DNA of 64,000 nucleotides. Origin: Pseudomonas linyingensis (lineage in GTDB: Bacteria > Pseudomonadota > Gammaproteobacteria > Pseudomonadales > Pseudomonadaceae). Within the stretch, counting starts at the first letter, position 1; every line of letters starts with the position of its first letter. Location: contig NZ_FNZE01000003.1 in NCBI RefSeq assembly GCF_900109175.1, positions 216,174-280,173 of the forward strand, in the 5' to 3' direction. The position numbers were made by a program, and so were the translations under genes. The notes beneath the pieces are model-generated. The model saw only the letters and a list, made by a program, of their open reading frames with translations. It had not been told where the DNA came from and made no database searches. Shown here one piece after another: positions 11,323 through 19,453 of the stretch.

Positions 11323-11361
11323 TTATCCATGGCAAGAGGCACAAACAGGGAGCCCGCGAGC

Positions 11362-12801
11362 ATGGTTCGCAGCACTTACGATGAGATGTACGACGTCCGG
11401 GGCGATTGCCGGGCACACTATCGAACCTTCGCCCGCTGGTTGGCCGCCACGCCGGCCGAGCAGCTGGAGCAGCGCCGACGCGAGGCGGACCTGTTGTTCC
11501 ATCGCGCGGGCATCACCTTCACCCTGTATGGCGACGATCAGGGTACCGAGCGCCTGATCCCCTTCGATACCATCCCGCGCAGCATCCCGGCGAGCGAATG
11601 GCGCAAGATCGAACAGGGCTGCATCCAGCGCGTACGTGCGCTGAACATGTTCCTCAGCGACCTCTATCACGACCAGCGCATCGTCAAGGCCGGGATCGTC
11701 CCGGCCGAGCAGGTGCTGGCCAACGAGGGCTACCAGCTGGCGATGCAGGGCATCGACCTGCCGCACAACCTCTATGCGCATATCGCCGGAGTTGATCTGG
11801 TGCGCGATGGCGACGGCACCTACTACGTGCTGGAAGACAACCTGCGTACGCCCAGCGGCGTTTCCTACATGCTGGAAAACCGCAAGATGATGATGCGCCT
11901 GTTCCCGGAGCTGTTCGCCGGGCAGCGCATCGCGCCGGTCAACCACTATCCTAACCTGCTGTTGGATACCCTGAAGAGTTCCAGCCTGGTGGACCACCCC
12001 AGCGTGGTGGTGCTGACCCCCGGTCGCTACAACAGCGCCTACTTCGAGCACGCCTTCCTGGCCCGCGAGATGGGCGTCGAGCTGGTGGAGGGGGCCGACC
12101 TGTTCGTGCGCGACGAGCGCGTGTACATGCGCACCACCGCCGGCCCGCAGCCGGTCGACGTGATCTACCGGCGCATCGACGACGCCTTCCTCGATCCGCT
12201 GGCCTTCAATCCCGACTCCATGCTCGGCGTGCCCGGCCTGCTGGCGGCCTACCGCAAGGGCAACGTGGTGCTGGCCAACGCCATCGGTACCGGAGTGGCC
12301 GACGACAAGTCGATCTATCCCTACGTCCCGGAGATGATCCGCTTCTATCTGGACGAGGAGCCCATCCTGCAGAACGTGCCGACCTGGCAGTGCCGCAAGC
12401 CGGCCGAGCTGTCCCACGTACTGGCCAACCTCGAGCAACTGGTGGTCAAGGAGACCCAGGGCTCCGGTGGCTACGGCATGCTGGTCGGCCCGGCCGCCAG
12501 CCAGGCGGAGATCGAGACCTTCCGCGCCCGCCTCAAGGCCAACCCGGCAGCCTACATCGCCCAGCCGACCCTCAGCCTGTCGACCTGTCCGACCTTCGTC
12601 GACAGCGGCATCGCGCCGCGGCACATCGACCTGCGGCCGTTCGTGCTGTCCGGTCGCGAGGTGCGCCTGGTCCCCGGTGGCCTGACCCGCGTGGCGCTGC
12701 GCGAGGGCTCCCTGGTGGTGAACTCGTCGCAGGGCGGCGGCACCAAGGACACCTGGGTGGTCGAGGAACCGACCGTCGCCGCTGAATCACGCGAAGTCTG
12801 A
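11362..12801 (+). CDS. Circularly permuted ATP-grasp protein (DUF404/DUF407 type)
   Basis: The 479-residue cytosolic protein belongs to the circularly permuted ATP-grasp family, predicted to form amide or peptide bonds using ATP through an acyl-phosphate. Visible features are YVLEDNLRTPSGVSYMLENR in the first third, the ATP-grasp lysine/glycine loop VVKETQGSGGYGMLVGP and a late nucleotide/metal segment (RPFVLSGREVRLVPGGLTRVAL). The ATG at 11362 follows AGGGAG and is downstream of the predicted sigma-54 start site. It is followed 12 bp later by an alpha-E gene and then a transglutaminase gene, the usual partners of this family. The product of the pathway is unknown. Confidence 0.88.
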   Translation: MVRSTYDEMYDVRGDCRAHYRTFARWLAATPAEQLEQRRREADLLFHRAGITFTLYGDDQGTERLIPFDTIPRSIPASEWRKIEQGCIQRVRALNMFLSDLYHDQRIVKAGIVPAEQVLANEGYQLAMQGIDLPHNLYAHIAGVDLVRDGDGTYYVLEDNLRTPSGVSYMLENRKMMMRLFPELFAGQRIAPVNHYPNLLLDTLKSSSLVDHPSVVVLTPGRYNSAYFEHAFLAREMGVELVEGADLFVRDERVYMRTTAGPQPVDVIYRRIDDAFLDPLAFNPDSMLGVPGLLAAYRKGNVVLANAIGTGVADDKSIYPYVPEMIRFYLDEEPILQNVPTWQCRKPAELSHVLANLEQLVVKETQGSGGYGMLVGPAASQAEIETFRARLKANPAAYIAQPTLSLSTCPTFVDSGIAPRHIDLRPFVLSGREVRLVPGGLTRVALREGSLVVNSSQGGGTKDTWVVEEPTVAAESREV

Positions 12802-12813
12802 GCGAGAACCGTC

Positions 12814-13758
12814 ATGCTGAGTCGTACTGCTGCCGATCTGTACTGGATGTCGCGCTATCTGGAGCGCGCGGAAAACATGGCGCGGATGCTGGATGTCAGC
12901 CATTCGCTGTCGCTGATGCCGCAGGGCGGTCGCGGCGATGGCTTGGAAGAGCTGGCCATGCCGCTGCTGATCACCGGCACCCTGGATGCCTATCTGGAGC
13001 GCCATGGCGAGCTGGACGCCGAGCGCATCCTGCACTTTTTCGCCCTCGATGCCGACAATCCGGCGAGCCTCTACAGTTGCCTGCGCGCGGCGCGGGCCAA
13101 CGCCCACGCGGTGCGCGGGCGGATCACCGCCGACGTCTGGGAGAACATCAATGCCACCTGGCTGGAGATGCGCCACATCGCCGCGCAGTCGCCGGCGAAT
13201 TTCGGTGCCAGCCATTTCTGCGAGTGGGTAAAGGAGCGCTCGCACCTGTTCCGCGGTGCCACCGAGGGCACCATCATGCGCGGCAATGCCTACCGCTTCA
13301 TCCGTCTCGGCACCTTCATCGAGCGCGCGGACAATACCCTGCGTCTGCTCGACGCCCGCAACCAGCTGATGGGCGACGAGCCGCCGGGCGACTCCTCAGC
13401 ACGCGACTACTTCCAGTGGAGTGCGCTGCTGCGCGCGCTGTCGGCCTACGAGGCGCATGCCGCCCTGTATCGCGGCTCGCCCAGGGTCGCCCAGGTGGCC
13501 GAGCTGCTGCTGCTGCGCCCCGAGGTGCCACGCTCGCTGCGCAGCTGCATCGGCGCCCTGAGCCAGATCCTCGCCGAGATTCCCGGCAACAATGGACGCC
13601 CTGCCCAGCGCATGGCCGCCGAGCTGGAGGCGCGCCTGCGCTTCACCGGCATCGAGGAGGTGCTGGAGGAGGGACTGCAGGCCTGGATTCACGACTACAT
13701 CCTGCTGGTGCGCCAGCTGGGTAGCGCCGTCCACAGTGCCTATCTGGAGGCCGTATGA
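12814..13758 (+). CDS. Alpha-E domain protein
   Basis: The 314-residue protein is almost entirely alpha-helical and starts MLSRTAADLYWMSRYLERAENMARMLD, the hallmark of the alpha-E family. These proteins are found beside, or fused to, circularly permuted ATP-grasp ligases and are thought to be functional partners of unknown activity. Internal helices repeat E/R-rich patterns (GTFIERADNTLRLLDAR resembles the N-terminal helix). Its stop overlaps the ATG of the transglutaminase gene by 4 bp, so the two are translationally coupled. Confidence 0.88.
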   Translation: MLSRTAADLYWMSRYLERAENMARMLDVSHSLSLMPQGGRGDGLEELAMPLLITGTLDAYLERHGELDAERILHFFALDADNPASLYSCLRAARANAHAVRGRITADVWENINATWLEMRHIAAQSPANFGASHFCEWVKERSHLFRGATEGTIMRGNAYRFIRLGTFIERADNTLRLLDARNQLMGDEPPGDSSARDYFQWSALLRALSAYEAHAALYRGSPRVAQVAELLLLRPEVPRSLRSCIGALSQILAEIPGNNGRPAQRMAAELEARLRFTGIEEVLEEGLQAWIHDYILLVRQLGSAVHSAYLEAV

Positions 13759-14558
13759 AGCTCGCCATCCATCACGGCACCACCTATCGCTACGCCGACC
13801 AGGTGCGTGCCAGCATTCAGTATCTGCGCCTGACGCCGCAGGACAGCCCGCGCCAGCGGGTACTCGACTGGGCGCTGGAGCTGCCGCAGTCGGCCCATGC
13901 ACAGCGCGACGGCCACGGCAACATTCTGCACGTGCTGACCCTCGACGAGCCGCATCAGGCCATCGTCATCAAGGCTCATGGCCATGTGGAGATCGACGAG
14001 AGCTGCGAGAGCGAGAGCGATCCGGGCTCGCCGCTACCCTACCTGTGCAGCACCGCCCTGACCGCGGCCGATGCCGCCCTGCGCACGTTTGCGCGCAGCG
14101 TGTGTGGCAAGTCGCGCGACCGCGCGGCACTGATCGGCTTGATGGAGCGCTTGTACCAGCACATGCCCTTCACCCCGGGCGCGACCCGCGTCGAGACCAC
14201 CGCTGCGCAGGCCTTCGCCCTGGGCGCCGGAGTCTGCCAGGACCACACCCATGTGTTCCTCGCCTGCGTGCGCAGTCTGGGCATTCCGGCGCGCTATGTG
14301 TCCGGCTACCTGTGCGCCGCGGGCAGCGACCAACTGGTCAGCCATGCCTGGGCCGAGGCCTGGCTCGAGGGCGCCTGGTACAGCTTCGACGTGACCAACC
14401 AACTGGCCCGTCCCGAGCGCCACCTCAAGCTCGCGGTCGGCCTCGACTATCTCGACGCCTGCCCGGTGCGCGGCATGTGCCGCGGCGGCGGTCAGGAGCA
14501 GATGCACGCCCAGTTGCAGGTGGTCCCCCAGCAGCAGGAACAAGCGCAGGAGCAGTGA
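13755..14558 (+). CDS. Transglutaminase-like cysteine protease family protein
   Basis: The 267-residue protein has a bacterial transglutaminase N-terminal domain (MKLAIHHGTTYRYADQV) and a transglutaminase-like core. The catalytic triad is Cys161 (GAGVCQDH), His197 (VSHAWAE) and Asp212 (SFDVTN). Such proteins are usually peptidases or amidases rather than cross-linkers. It has no signal peptide and is the third gene of the ATP-grasp/alpha-E operon, where it is predicted to process or release the ligated product. A C-terminal Gln/Glu-rich tail (QVVPQQQEQAQEQ) is unusual and probably disordered. Confidence 0.88.
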   Translation: MKLAIHHGTTYRYADQVRASIQYLRLTPQDSPRQRVLDWALELPQSAHAQRDGHGNILHVLTLDEPHQAIVIKAHGHVEIDESCESESDPGSPLPYLCSTALTAADAALRTFARSVCGKSRDRAALIGLMERLYQHMPFTPGATRVETTAAQAFALGAGVCQDHTHVFLACVRSLGIPARYVSGYLCAAGSDQLVSHAWAEAWLEGAWYSFDVTNQLARPERHLKLAVGLDYLDACPVRGMCRGGGQEQMHAQLQVVPQQQEQAQEQ

Positions 14559-14627: not shown

Positions 14628-17306
<2,679 letters not shown>

Positions 17307-17369
17307 GGGGGTTCTCCTGGTGGTAACCGATCAAGGGCGATTCGCGTCGCCAGCGGCAAGTATGGGGGC

Positions 17370-18131
17370 TCAGCCATCCGGGCGCTCGTAGACGTACGGC
17401 TCCATCAGGTCCTGCATGCTGTAGAAGCCCTTGTCCCGCGCCAGCAGGTTCTTCGCGGCGAACAGCACGCCATTGCCGAAGGCCTCACGGGCGATGGACT
17501 CGTGGCTGAGGCGCACGGTCTGGTAGGGAAAGCCGAAGAGGATCTCATGGCGGCCGACGATGCCGCCGGCGCGGATCGATTTGATGTCGTCGCTGCATTG
17601 ATCGAGGGTTTCCGCGATGACCCTGGCGGTGCCGGAGGTTTCCGGCTTGGCGGCAAAGTGCTCCTCGATGATCGCGATGTCGGCCTCGGGAGCGATCTGC
17701 TTGAGGATCTTCGCCGCCAGGATCAGGAAGTTGATGCCGATGGTGATGTTCGGCGACCAGAGCACCTGGGTGTGCTCGGCCAGTGCCCGCAGCTGCTCGA
17801 CGCGCTCCTCGGGATACTGGGATATGGCGCTGATAATGGCGATGCCGCGCTGGCCTGCTTCGCGGGCATACAGGTCGAGGCCGTCGGCGCTGGAGAAGTC
17901 GATGATCACATCGACCGGATGGCGGTCGAGCAGGCTGTCCATGGCGATCTCGTCTCTGCCGAAGATCAGCGCGGGGTTGTCCGAGGTCACGCCCAGGCAG
18001 TCAGCGGCCGACTTGCGCTCGGGATTGGCCGAGCCGCGGATGACCCACTGCAGTGCAGTGGCGTCGCTTTCAAGCAGAACGGAGGCGACAGATTTGCCTG
18101 TGCGTCCGAAACCAATCAATCCAACCTTCAA
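17370..18131 (-). CDS. DapB-like reductase (divergent dihydrodipicolinate reductase homologue)
   Basis: The 253-residue NAD(P)-binding protein has an N-terminal Rossmann motif (VGLIGFGRTG, residues 3-12), VIIDFSSADGLDLYAREA and SPNITIGINFLI, all arranged as in DapB. The catalytic motif is altered: canonical E-x-H-H-x-x-K-x-D-A-P-S-G-T-A is here EEHFAAKPETSGTA (156-169). It lacks the second His and the Asp-Ala-Pro and is one residue shorter. It is probably a reductase acting on a different imine or cyclic substrate. I chose the TTG at 18131, preceded by GAGG, because it starts right before the Rossmann strand; an ATG 18 codons upstream has a poorly spaced ribosome site. Confidence 0.75.
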   Translation of the reverse strand: MKVGLIGFGRTGKSVASVLLESDATALQWVIRGSANPERKSAADCLGVTSDNPALIFGRDEIAMDSLLDRHPVDVIIDFSSADGLDLYAREAGQRGIAIISAISQYPEERVEQLRALAEHTQVLWSPNITIGINFLILAAKILKQIAPEADIAIIEEHFAAKPETSGTARVIAETLDQCSDDIKSIRAGGIVGRHEILFGFPYQTVRLSHESIAREAFGNGVLFAAKNLLARDKGFYSMQDLMEPYVYERPDG

Positions 18132-18535
18132 TTTCCATGTCCTCGAGTGTCTGATTGTTGTTGTCCGAATACGCATACTCCCGGGGAAAATGACTGCGCG
18201 TTCAATGTGTTGTGGCTGGTCCGGGCGGACCGACCGTGTCCCGACCATAACCCATGCTGGCGCGATGGGTCCACGCGCCGGGCTGGCGCCAAGGCTGCGC
18301 GATGGATGTGACGATTGCGGGACACTGCGCCACAGCCCCCGGCTCACGGGGGCTGTGGCCTCGTAATATCCCGCAATAAAACCACGGTCTTTGCCGCCCG
18401 GCCGCGGCTGCTCGCCCTGCGGCGGGGGCCGCCGGTTGCGCCAAGCGTGGACGCGCCGGCAATTCGGCACCGATCCGCTTTGCCTCGTGCGGTTGGCCCA
18501 GTACGATCAGCGCTTTTCGCGAAGGGAGTACGCGC
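18132..18535. other. Divergent intergenic region with structured DNA
   Basis: These 404 bp separate the start of the DapB-like gene (minus) and moxR (plus), so they should hold both promoters. No good sigma-70 hexamer pair stands out. The segment 18240-18310 is rich in short GCGC/GGCGCC motifs, and a nested inverted repeat occupies 18314-18377. A GAAGGGAG ribosome site lies directly before moxR. I find no open frame with coding character. Confidence 0.55.
18314..18377. repeat. Nested inverted repeat (two stacked stems)
   Basis: An outer 9-bp stem, ATTGCGGGA (18314-18322) with TCCCGCAAT (18369-18377), encloses a perfect 12-bp inner stem, CCACAGCCCCCG (18330-18341) with CGGGGGCTGTGG (18347-18358), and a 5-nt loop. 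No T tract follows on either strand. It lies upstream of two divergent genes, so a simple gene-end terminator is unlikely. Confidence 0.7.
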
Positions 18536-19453
18536 ATGCGCACCCAATTGGACAGCTGCCTGGCCGCCGTCAATCAGGTTCTGCTCGGCAAGGACAGACA
18601 GGTGCGCCTGGCCCTGGCCTGCCTGCTGGCCCGCGGCCATCTGCTGCTGGAAGACCTGCCGGGGATGGGCAAGACCACCCTCAGCCATACCCTGGCCAGG
18701 GTGCTGGGCCTCAGTTACCAGCGCATCCAGTTCACCTCCGACCTGCTGCCCGGCGACATCCTCGGTACCTCGGTATTCAACCGCGAGAGTGGGCAGTTCA
18801 TCTTCCATCCGGGACCGATCTTCGCCGAGCTGGTACTGGCCGACGAGATCAACCGTGCCACCCCGAAGAGCCAGAGCGCCCTGCTCGAGGCGATGGAGGA
18901 GGGCCAGGTGACCATCGAGGGTGCCACCCGGCCGCTGCCCGAACCGTTCTTTGTCATCGCCACGCAGAACCCCAGTTGCCAGGGCGGCACCTTCGCCCTG
19001 CCCGAGTCGCAGCTCGATCGCTTTCTCATGCGCGTCTCGCTCGGCTATCCGGCGCGCAGTGCCGAGAAGGCGCTGCTGCAGGGCGAGGCGCGCCGCGACC
19101 TGCTGCCGCGTCTGGAGCCGATCCTCGACCACGCCGCGCTGGCACGGATCCAGGCCGAGGTGCCGGCCGTGCATGCCAGCGATGCGGTGATCGATTATGT
19201 CCTGCGCCTGGCCGAGGCGACCCGTACCCAGCCGGCCTTTGCCCTTGGCCTGTCGCCGCGCGGCAGCCTGGCGCTGCTCGCTGCGGCGCGGGCCTGGGCG
19301 ATGTTGGCCGGCCGCGACTATGTGATTCCCGAGGACGTGCAGGCGGTGCTGCCATCGGTGGCCGGCCATCGCCTGCGCGACCAGGCCGACCCGGCCGGGC
19401 ATGGCGGTGGCGCGCTGGTGCAGTGGCTGCTGCGCGAAGTGACGCCGTTCTGA
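18536..19453 (+). CDS. MoxR-type AAA+ ATPase
   Basis: The 305-residue MoxR-family ATPase acts as a chaperone-like remodeller, usually with a DUF58 partner. It has the Walker A motif GMGKTTLS, Walker B VLADEINR, sensor 1 ATQNP and an arginine-finger region ESQLDRF. MoxR-DUF58-transglutaminase loci are common, and in P. aeruginosa the homologous genes flank the essential tgpA. Its stop overlaps the ATG of the DUF58 gene, so translation is coupled. A role in assembling or activating a membrane complex is inferred from that context. Confidence 0.92.
   Translation: MRTQLDSCLAAVNQVLLGKDRQVRLALACLLARGHLLLEDLPGMGKTTLSHTLARVLGLSYQRIQFTSDLLPGDILGTSVFNRESGQFIFHPGPIFAELVLADEINRATPKSQSALLEAMEEGQVTIEGATRPLPEPFFVIATQNPSCQGGTFALPESQLDRFLMRVSLGYPARSAEKALLQGEARRDLLPRLEPILDHAALARIQAEVPAVHASDAVIDYVLRLAEATRTQPAFALGLSPRGSLALLAAARAWAMLAGRDYVIPEDVQAVLPSVAGHRLRDQADPAGHGGGALVQWLLREVTPF

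Follow-up and report, generated by a model that had tools for sequence, protein, structure and literature searches.

Why would a bacterium that carries a canonical dapB also maintain a second, DapB-like gene with an altered catalytic motif? The question is raised by a gene of Pseudomonas linyingensis, which lies in a stretch of 64,000 nucleotides (the window). We examined the protein and its relatives, the residues that set it apart from DapB, and the genes that surround it in several bacterial lineages.

A DapB-like paralogue and its canonical counterpart

The open reading frame that a first-pass annotation had called at this locus is exact (Table 1), and the DapB-like character noted there holds: Pfam matches the protein to DapB_N at 43.8 bits, over a cut-off of 25.6, and to DapB_C at 74 bits, over one of 27. 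A putative ribosome-binding site, gagg, lies immediately 5' of the TTG start. Orthologues in genomes G004, G001 and G007 have TTG at the same start point, and those in G002 and Thiothrix have ATG; because the orthologues begin at the same point, we regard the TTG start as sound. Pairwise dN/dS values of 0.13-0.40 within the genus reveal purifying selection, and the protein is conserved at 60% in Pseudomonas sp. 8AS and at 64% in Thiothrix. Given this selection and conservation, a DapB-like gene with a changed motif is not a product of chance.

Table 1 Features at the DapB-like locus, in window positions
Feature	Position	Strand	Remarks
P-type II cation ATPase, 892 aa	14628..17306	-	63 bp downstream of the DapB-like gene, co-directional
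DapB-like paralogue gene	17370..18131	-	253 aa; TTG start; stop codon within span
Altered catalytic/substrate loop E-E-H-F-A-A-K-P-E-T-S-G-T-A (residues 156-169)	17625..17666	-	alignment
S-A-I-S (residues 101-104)	17820..17831	-	A-I-S-Q (102-105) where DapB has G-T-T-G; alignment
Nucleotide-binding loop G-F-G-R-T-G (GxGxxG, residues 7-12)	18096..18113	-	alignments; codon count from TTG at 18131
Divergent intergenic region, DapB-like gene to moxR	18132..18535	.	no Rfam match up to E 0.5
MoxR-type ATPase, conserved-site marker	18536..19453	+	named by eye

The AlphaFold2 model of the protein is confident (pLDDT 91.5, pTM 0.88), and its top structural matches are DapBs. The likeness extends over nearly the full model (PDB 1arz, 4ywj, 5z2e), with a Z score of 25.7 and an rmsd of 2.8 over 241 residues for E. 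coli 1arz_C, with which several others are tied. The paralogue also shares with DapB the C-terminal-domain Arg, yet its identity to DapB is only about 20-31%, and against the DapB equivalog profile TIGR00036 it scores 104.2 bits, under the 122-bit cut-off. All nine scanned paralogues fall under this cut-off (87-118 bits), in sharp contrast to two canonical proteins at 343 and 224 bits. We also considered 2,4-diaminopentanoate dehydrogenase and the native amine dehydrogenases (PF19328), which have a related architecture and whose C-terminal domain, according to a published report, was formerly annotated as dihydrodipicolinate reductase (PMC11164908). The structural match to these enzymes reaches a Z of about 16, a clear drop from about 25 for DapB. 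The paralogue keeps the DapB-type C-terminal domain and has no PF19328 match among those listed up to E 1, and we rejected 2,4-diaminopentanoate dehydrogenase as an assignment.

The first-pass annotation had also supposed that the true DapB probably lies elsewhere, the usual place being near dnaJ and carA. A canonical dapB is indeed present in the source genome at G000:C28 (DapB_C 155 bits), between two genes that on visual inspection are dnaJ and carA, which excludes on copy number that the window gene is the only dapB. Each of the eight paralogue-bearing genomes counted (G000, G001, G908, G1124, G1150, G1199, G1207 and G1208) has a canonical DapB_C protein, a paralogue and no third; G006, G1229, G1285, G1326, G1370, G1387 and the Thiothrix chromosome lie outside this count. 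G002, G004, G005 and G007 likewise yielded canonical sequences; the second match in G006 was weak only. G003, of the same genus, has the canonical dapB and no paralogue.

The phylogeny against DapB that had been proposed as a check places the paralogues in a clade of their own: all 13 paralogue rows group together with support of 100/100, apart from the 13 canonical rows, in a tree whose root is arbitrary and in which three canonical rows sit on very long branches. The spread of the clade is patchy. Seven of the eight genomes of the genus carry the paralogue; among 290 genomes sampled from other genera of the family, no carrier was found at E 1e-20 (7/298 overall). A single-protein search of a 369-genome class sample yielded no paralogue-level match beyond the window's own genome; its 14 relatives, at 28-34% identity, all have the canonical HH motif. 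In the phylum sample, 2 of 398 genomes were positive, namely the source genome and G908, and in the order of G908 a first draw of 200 genomes gave five carriers and a second draw of 399 gave ten, the same five included. The alignment used as query for the phylum sample, the viral contig scan and the first order draw held 8 distinct rows of 9, with the window protein present twice. Named carriers, partly the same genomes as those in the sampled counts, are Pseudomonas (now Geopseudomonas) sagittaria (96%), two strains at 83-84%, Pseudomonas sp. 8AS and the plasmid pThsubDNT52_1 of Thiothrix subterranea, which bears the Thiothrix copy. A phage origin by direct match was rejected: the viral contig scan returned no relative and there was no PHROG match, and phage records gave DapB-level matches only, at no more than 30.6% identity among the best 20 of 21. 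Our searches of the open-licence literature found no paper on this branch.

Residues that distinguish the paralogues from DapB

We compared 19 paralogues with 24 canonical DapBs in the main residue alignment, in which both sets contain several near-identical sequences. The catalytic motif region of the window protein reads EEHFAAKPETSGTA. Both losses noted on first inspection were borne out. The second His of the HH pair is Phe in 19/19 paralogues and His in 24/24 canonical DapBs, and the D-A-P stretch is replaced by an acid plus one residue (E-T in the window protein) with the Pro deleted. Across the paralogues the Asp position is occupied by Glu (17) or Asp (2) and the Ala position by Thr, Val or Ile, so that the loop K-x-[ED]-[TVI]-S-G-T-A is one residue shorter than the K-x-D-A-P-S-G-T-A of DapB. 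The resulting signature, E-[EQ]-H-F-x-x-K-x-[ED]-x-S-G-T-A, fits all 19 sequences.

Three further changes came to light. The nucleotide-binding loop is GxGxxG in 13/13 aligned paralogue rows, one residue less than the GxxG[RK]MG of DapB (13 canonical rows); the paralogues thus depart from the GxxGxxG nucleotide motif, which the PaDHDPR study describes as conserved in DHDPRs (PMC5962572). Where DapB has GTTG, the paralogues have A[IVN]S followed by a variable residue, and where it has GERxEITHK they have QT[VI]R[LF]xH[ED]. At single positions, residue 104 is Ser in 19/19 paralogues versus Thr in 24/24 canonical proteins, residue 207 is Arg in 19/19 versus Glu in 20/24, and the residue after strand 2 is Arg, Lys or His in 19/19 versus Asp or Glu in 16/24. 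Conversely, H158, K162, S166, G167, T168 and R187 are unchanged in 19/19 paralogues, including the catalytic His (the first of HH) and Lys, as in DapB.

The structural meaning of these changes can be approached through the PaDHDPR-dipicolinate complex. There, His155 contacts one carboxylate of dipicolinate, Thr165 and the Pro125 carbonyl oxygen the other, and Lys158 the ring nitrogen, while Thr100 contacts both NADPH and dipicolinate and bonds Asp160 (PMC5962572). The same study suggests that a Lys or Arg in the region after strand 2 is important for NADPH, and reports Glu38 of E. coli DapB at the NADH ribose (PMC5962572). By our own matching of paralogue residues to PaDHDPR, made by alignment, the Lys, the Thr and the first-His side of the pocket are intact, the Thr-Asp pair is Ser-Glu/Asp, and the His155 site is gone. 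We infer an active reductase that would prefer NADPH and, with its changed pocket, would accept an imine differing at the second carboxylate. That the paralogue acts on another substrate, as the first-pass annotation had suggested, is plausible from the pocket changes. On the other side, the Thr100-Asp160 pair of DapB is retained as Ser plus an acid, so that the pocket is conserved in part.

Genomic neighbourhoods and ion transport

The neighbouring P-type ATPase that the first-pass annotation had named is real. It adjoins the paralogue in all seven carrier genomes of the genus and is the sole transporter class found at the locus there. In G003 (L064), a gap of 292 bp separates the ATPase (81%) from moxR (94%), and no remnant of the DapB-like gene was found in it. 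Both the single transporter class in the genus and the retention of the ATPase without the paralogue in G003 count against the role in ion homeostasis that we propose below. Rfam detected no riboswitch or other element over window positions 16800-19200.

Two side observations concern the region around the ATPase. Among the best 25 of 29 NCBIfam rows, the enzyme falls under every specific cation-ATPase equivalog cut-off, the best profile being TIGR01522 with 602 bits against a cut-off of 798, and its stretches PTSAGQ and NMITAI differ from the SERCA-type site motif. Beside it, at 11329-14558, a three-gene cluster on the + strand (presumably ATP-grasp-like, alpha-E-like and transglutaminase-like) is syntenic in 6/7 paralogue-bearing genomes of the genus; no copy was found within the 19 kb examined in G001.

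Outside the genus, the paralogue lies among varied transporters. On the Thiothrix plasmid, genes for SulP, Usp and the DapB-like protein face a P-type ATPase, with MBL, a Ca/Na antiporter and NhaD farther away. G908 and G1124 have the DapB-like gene between a citrate-transporter/NhaD-like gene (scanned in G1124, where it is under the Pfam cut-off) and a Na/H exchanger; the genes upstream encode Usp, a KefB-type antiporter and a P-type ATPase. Near the paralogue we found a P-type ATPase, a PF07399 Na/H antiporter and a sodium:alanine symporter in G1150; MscS, a Na/H exchanger, SulP, an NhaD-like protein and a P-type ATPase in G1229 and G1285; a Na/H exchanger and a citrate-transporter/ArsB-type carrier (PF03600, PF02040) in G1387, with SulP and an ATPase at the 20-kb edges; ClC and SulP in G1326; and two sodium:alanine-symporter relatives in Pseudomonas sp. 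8AS. The 8AS neighbours (L029 1-16750) otherwise resemble, by eye, amino-acid catabolism (glutaminase, asparaginase, aspartase). None of the tested transporter classes was found at the G1199 locus, nor at those of G1207 and G1370. In these last two low-GC genomes of one lineage (L075 8529-10357, L104 9666-11482), the paralogue directly follows the only DapA found, on the same strand and at gaps of 116 and 104 bp, respectively, and G1207 also has a canonical dapB. At 13 further paralogue loci, the Rfam matches over gathering threshold were limited to two tRNAs and one tandem glycine riboswitch, with no Na+ riboswitch among them; the glycine riboswitch is in G1285 (L102 18956-19214), at a distance of about 9 kb from the paralogue.

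The P-type ATPases at paralogue loci are about 41-56% identical between lineages. Because they are so diverse, a single recently inherited DapB-like/ATPase cassette is unlikely, and we rejected it; gene order and orientation also vary.

To quantify the association, we searched each locus with transporter queries that excluded its own lineage; the queries had been picked from the loci under test. At least one transporter class was found in 10/13 paralogue loci and at least two in 7/13. With one locus per genus, and the empty G1199 standing for its genus, the counts were 8/10 and 5/10 genus-level lineages. In sharp contrast, random 20-kb segments, 20 each from the carriers G908, G1229 and G001, contained at least one class in 3/60 cases (2, 1 and 0 by genome) and at least two in 0/60; some of these segments overlap each other, and one shares about 500 bases with a test locus. 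Canonical dapB loci contained a transporter class in 0/7 cases, one of the loci being only 13.9 kb long. A P-type ATPase was present in 6/10 genus-level lineages versus 1/60 random segments (Fisher 1e-5). From Cation_ATPase_C counts, 0.11 of 9 genomes would be expected by chance to have one within 10 kb of the paralogue, whereas 6/9 do, or 5/9 if G1199 represents its genus instead of G1285. Fisher values are optimistic here: the lineages are related and so not fully independent, and we chose the query classes with the loci already in view. The effect size therefore carries more weight than the p value. The enrichment of paralogue neighbourhoods in ion transporters is a new observation.

Proposed function and its alternatives

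How might a remodelled DapB serve a cell beside ion transporters? We propose, with a probability of about 0.5, that this paralogue of 4-hydroxy-tetrahydrodipicolinate (HTPA) reductase has taken on another job: it would be a cytosolic DapB-fold enzyme, probably an NADPH-preferring reductase of a related imine, serving ion, pH or osmotic homeostasis. DapB chemistry would be retained, with the first His as the acid, the Lys polarising the imine, and the SGT loop and a Pro carbonyl holding one carboxylate. In a pocket that anchors a single carboxylate, Lys162 would polarise the imine for hydride transfer from NADPH, giving a product of use to the cell when its ion balance shifts. Loss of the His for the second carboxylate makes a changed substrate likely, namely a related imine with one carboxylate or with a different second group. 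The product or the activity would probably contribute to homeostasis, for example as an osmolyte-type imino acid; this role is probable because the paralogue genes are maintained together with Na+ and cation transporters. The G1207, G1370 and G1199 loci, which have no transporter class, run counter to it, and the position of the paralogue beside the only DapA found in the first two points to the lysine pathway.

This DapA neighbour in one lineage keeps a small but real chance for an accessory HTPA reductase isoenzyme, which would carry out the same reaction with another cofactor or regulation and, expressed under salt or ion stress, would sustain diaminopimelate and lysine. The retained catalytic His and Lys, SGT, Ser/Thr hydroxyl and acid agree with such an enzyme. 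So does a published account of Na+ riboswitches that control dapB in some bacteria, a control interpreted there as an osmotic response (PMC9337991). The tie to sodium or osmotic stress would be common to both, although no Rfam element such as a Na+ riboswitch was found near the gene or at the other paralogue loci scanned. We nonetheless consider the isoenzyme unlikely: Phe replaces the carboxylate-binding second His throughout, the loop is shorter, every paralogue scanned scores below the TIGR00036 cut-off, and a canonical dapB is also present in all eight counted genomes.

A pseudo-enzyme is less probable still. Such a protein would bind NAD(P)H as a partner or sensor and regulate, or help to assemble, the neighbouring ion transporters, much as TrkA_N domains are NAD(P)H-binding partners or sensors of ion transporters, or as CRR1 might suggest. 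The chloroplast NDH complex, to which CRR1 is tied, pumps protons. CRR1 (AT5G52100), an Arabidopsis DapB homologue with a non-lysine role, failed to complement a dapB strain and has been linked to the chloroplast NAD(P)H dehydrogenase, according to a published account (PMC3390394); we set it beside the paralogue by description only, and it differs in being plastidial and having another partner. That the DapB-like protein is constant while the transporters vary would suit a regulator, but no transporter family is constant as its partner. Fixed catalytic residues make a non-catalytic regulator less likely, and the retention of these residues and the SGT loop in 19/19 paralogues would be unusual for a pure sensor. 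We give the lowest credence to an ordinary dapB duplicate, retained or transferred without special function, whose neighbours merely reflect plasmid or island ancestry. The patchy spread, the plasmid copy in Thiothrix and the clean absence in G003 fit this explanation; it is at odds with purifying selection, with a signature fixed across distant lineages, and with several unrelated transporter classes and diverged ATPases that do not form one recent block.

For the preferred reading of a reductase with another job, the Na+ riboswitches offer a precedent for a link between dapB and sodium or osmotic conditions, and CRR1 one for the recruitment of a DapB homologue to a different task. The paralogue is a new variant within the DapB family, uncharacterised in the literature searched, and its genomic association with ion-transport genes was tested against controls. 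More tentatively, and with less confidence than in the reading above, it may represent a new DapB branch that in Gammaproteobacteria acts outside lysine synthesis, in sodium/ion and osmotic homeostasis, either as an NADPH-dependent enzyme or as a redox sensor; it would travel on varied ion-transport islands and might, for example, make an unrecognised imino-acid osmolyte.

Lysine synthesis is the textbook role of DapB, and the annotation of the Thiothrix copy, made from its domain only, carries a lysine-biosynthesis term. The signature defined here could stop such genes from being named dapB. A coherent and conserved branch whose pocket is remodelled and whose genes associate with those for Na+/H+ antiporters, P-type ATPases, SulP, MscS and ClC suggests an unrecognised metabolic arm of ion or osmotic homeostasis.
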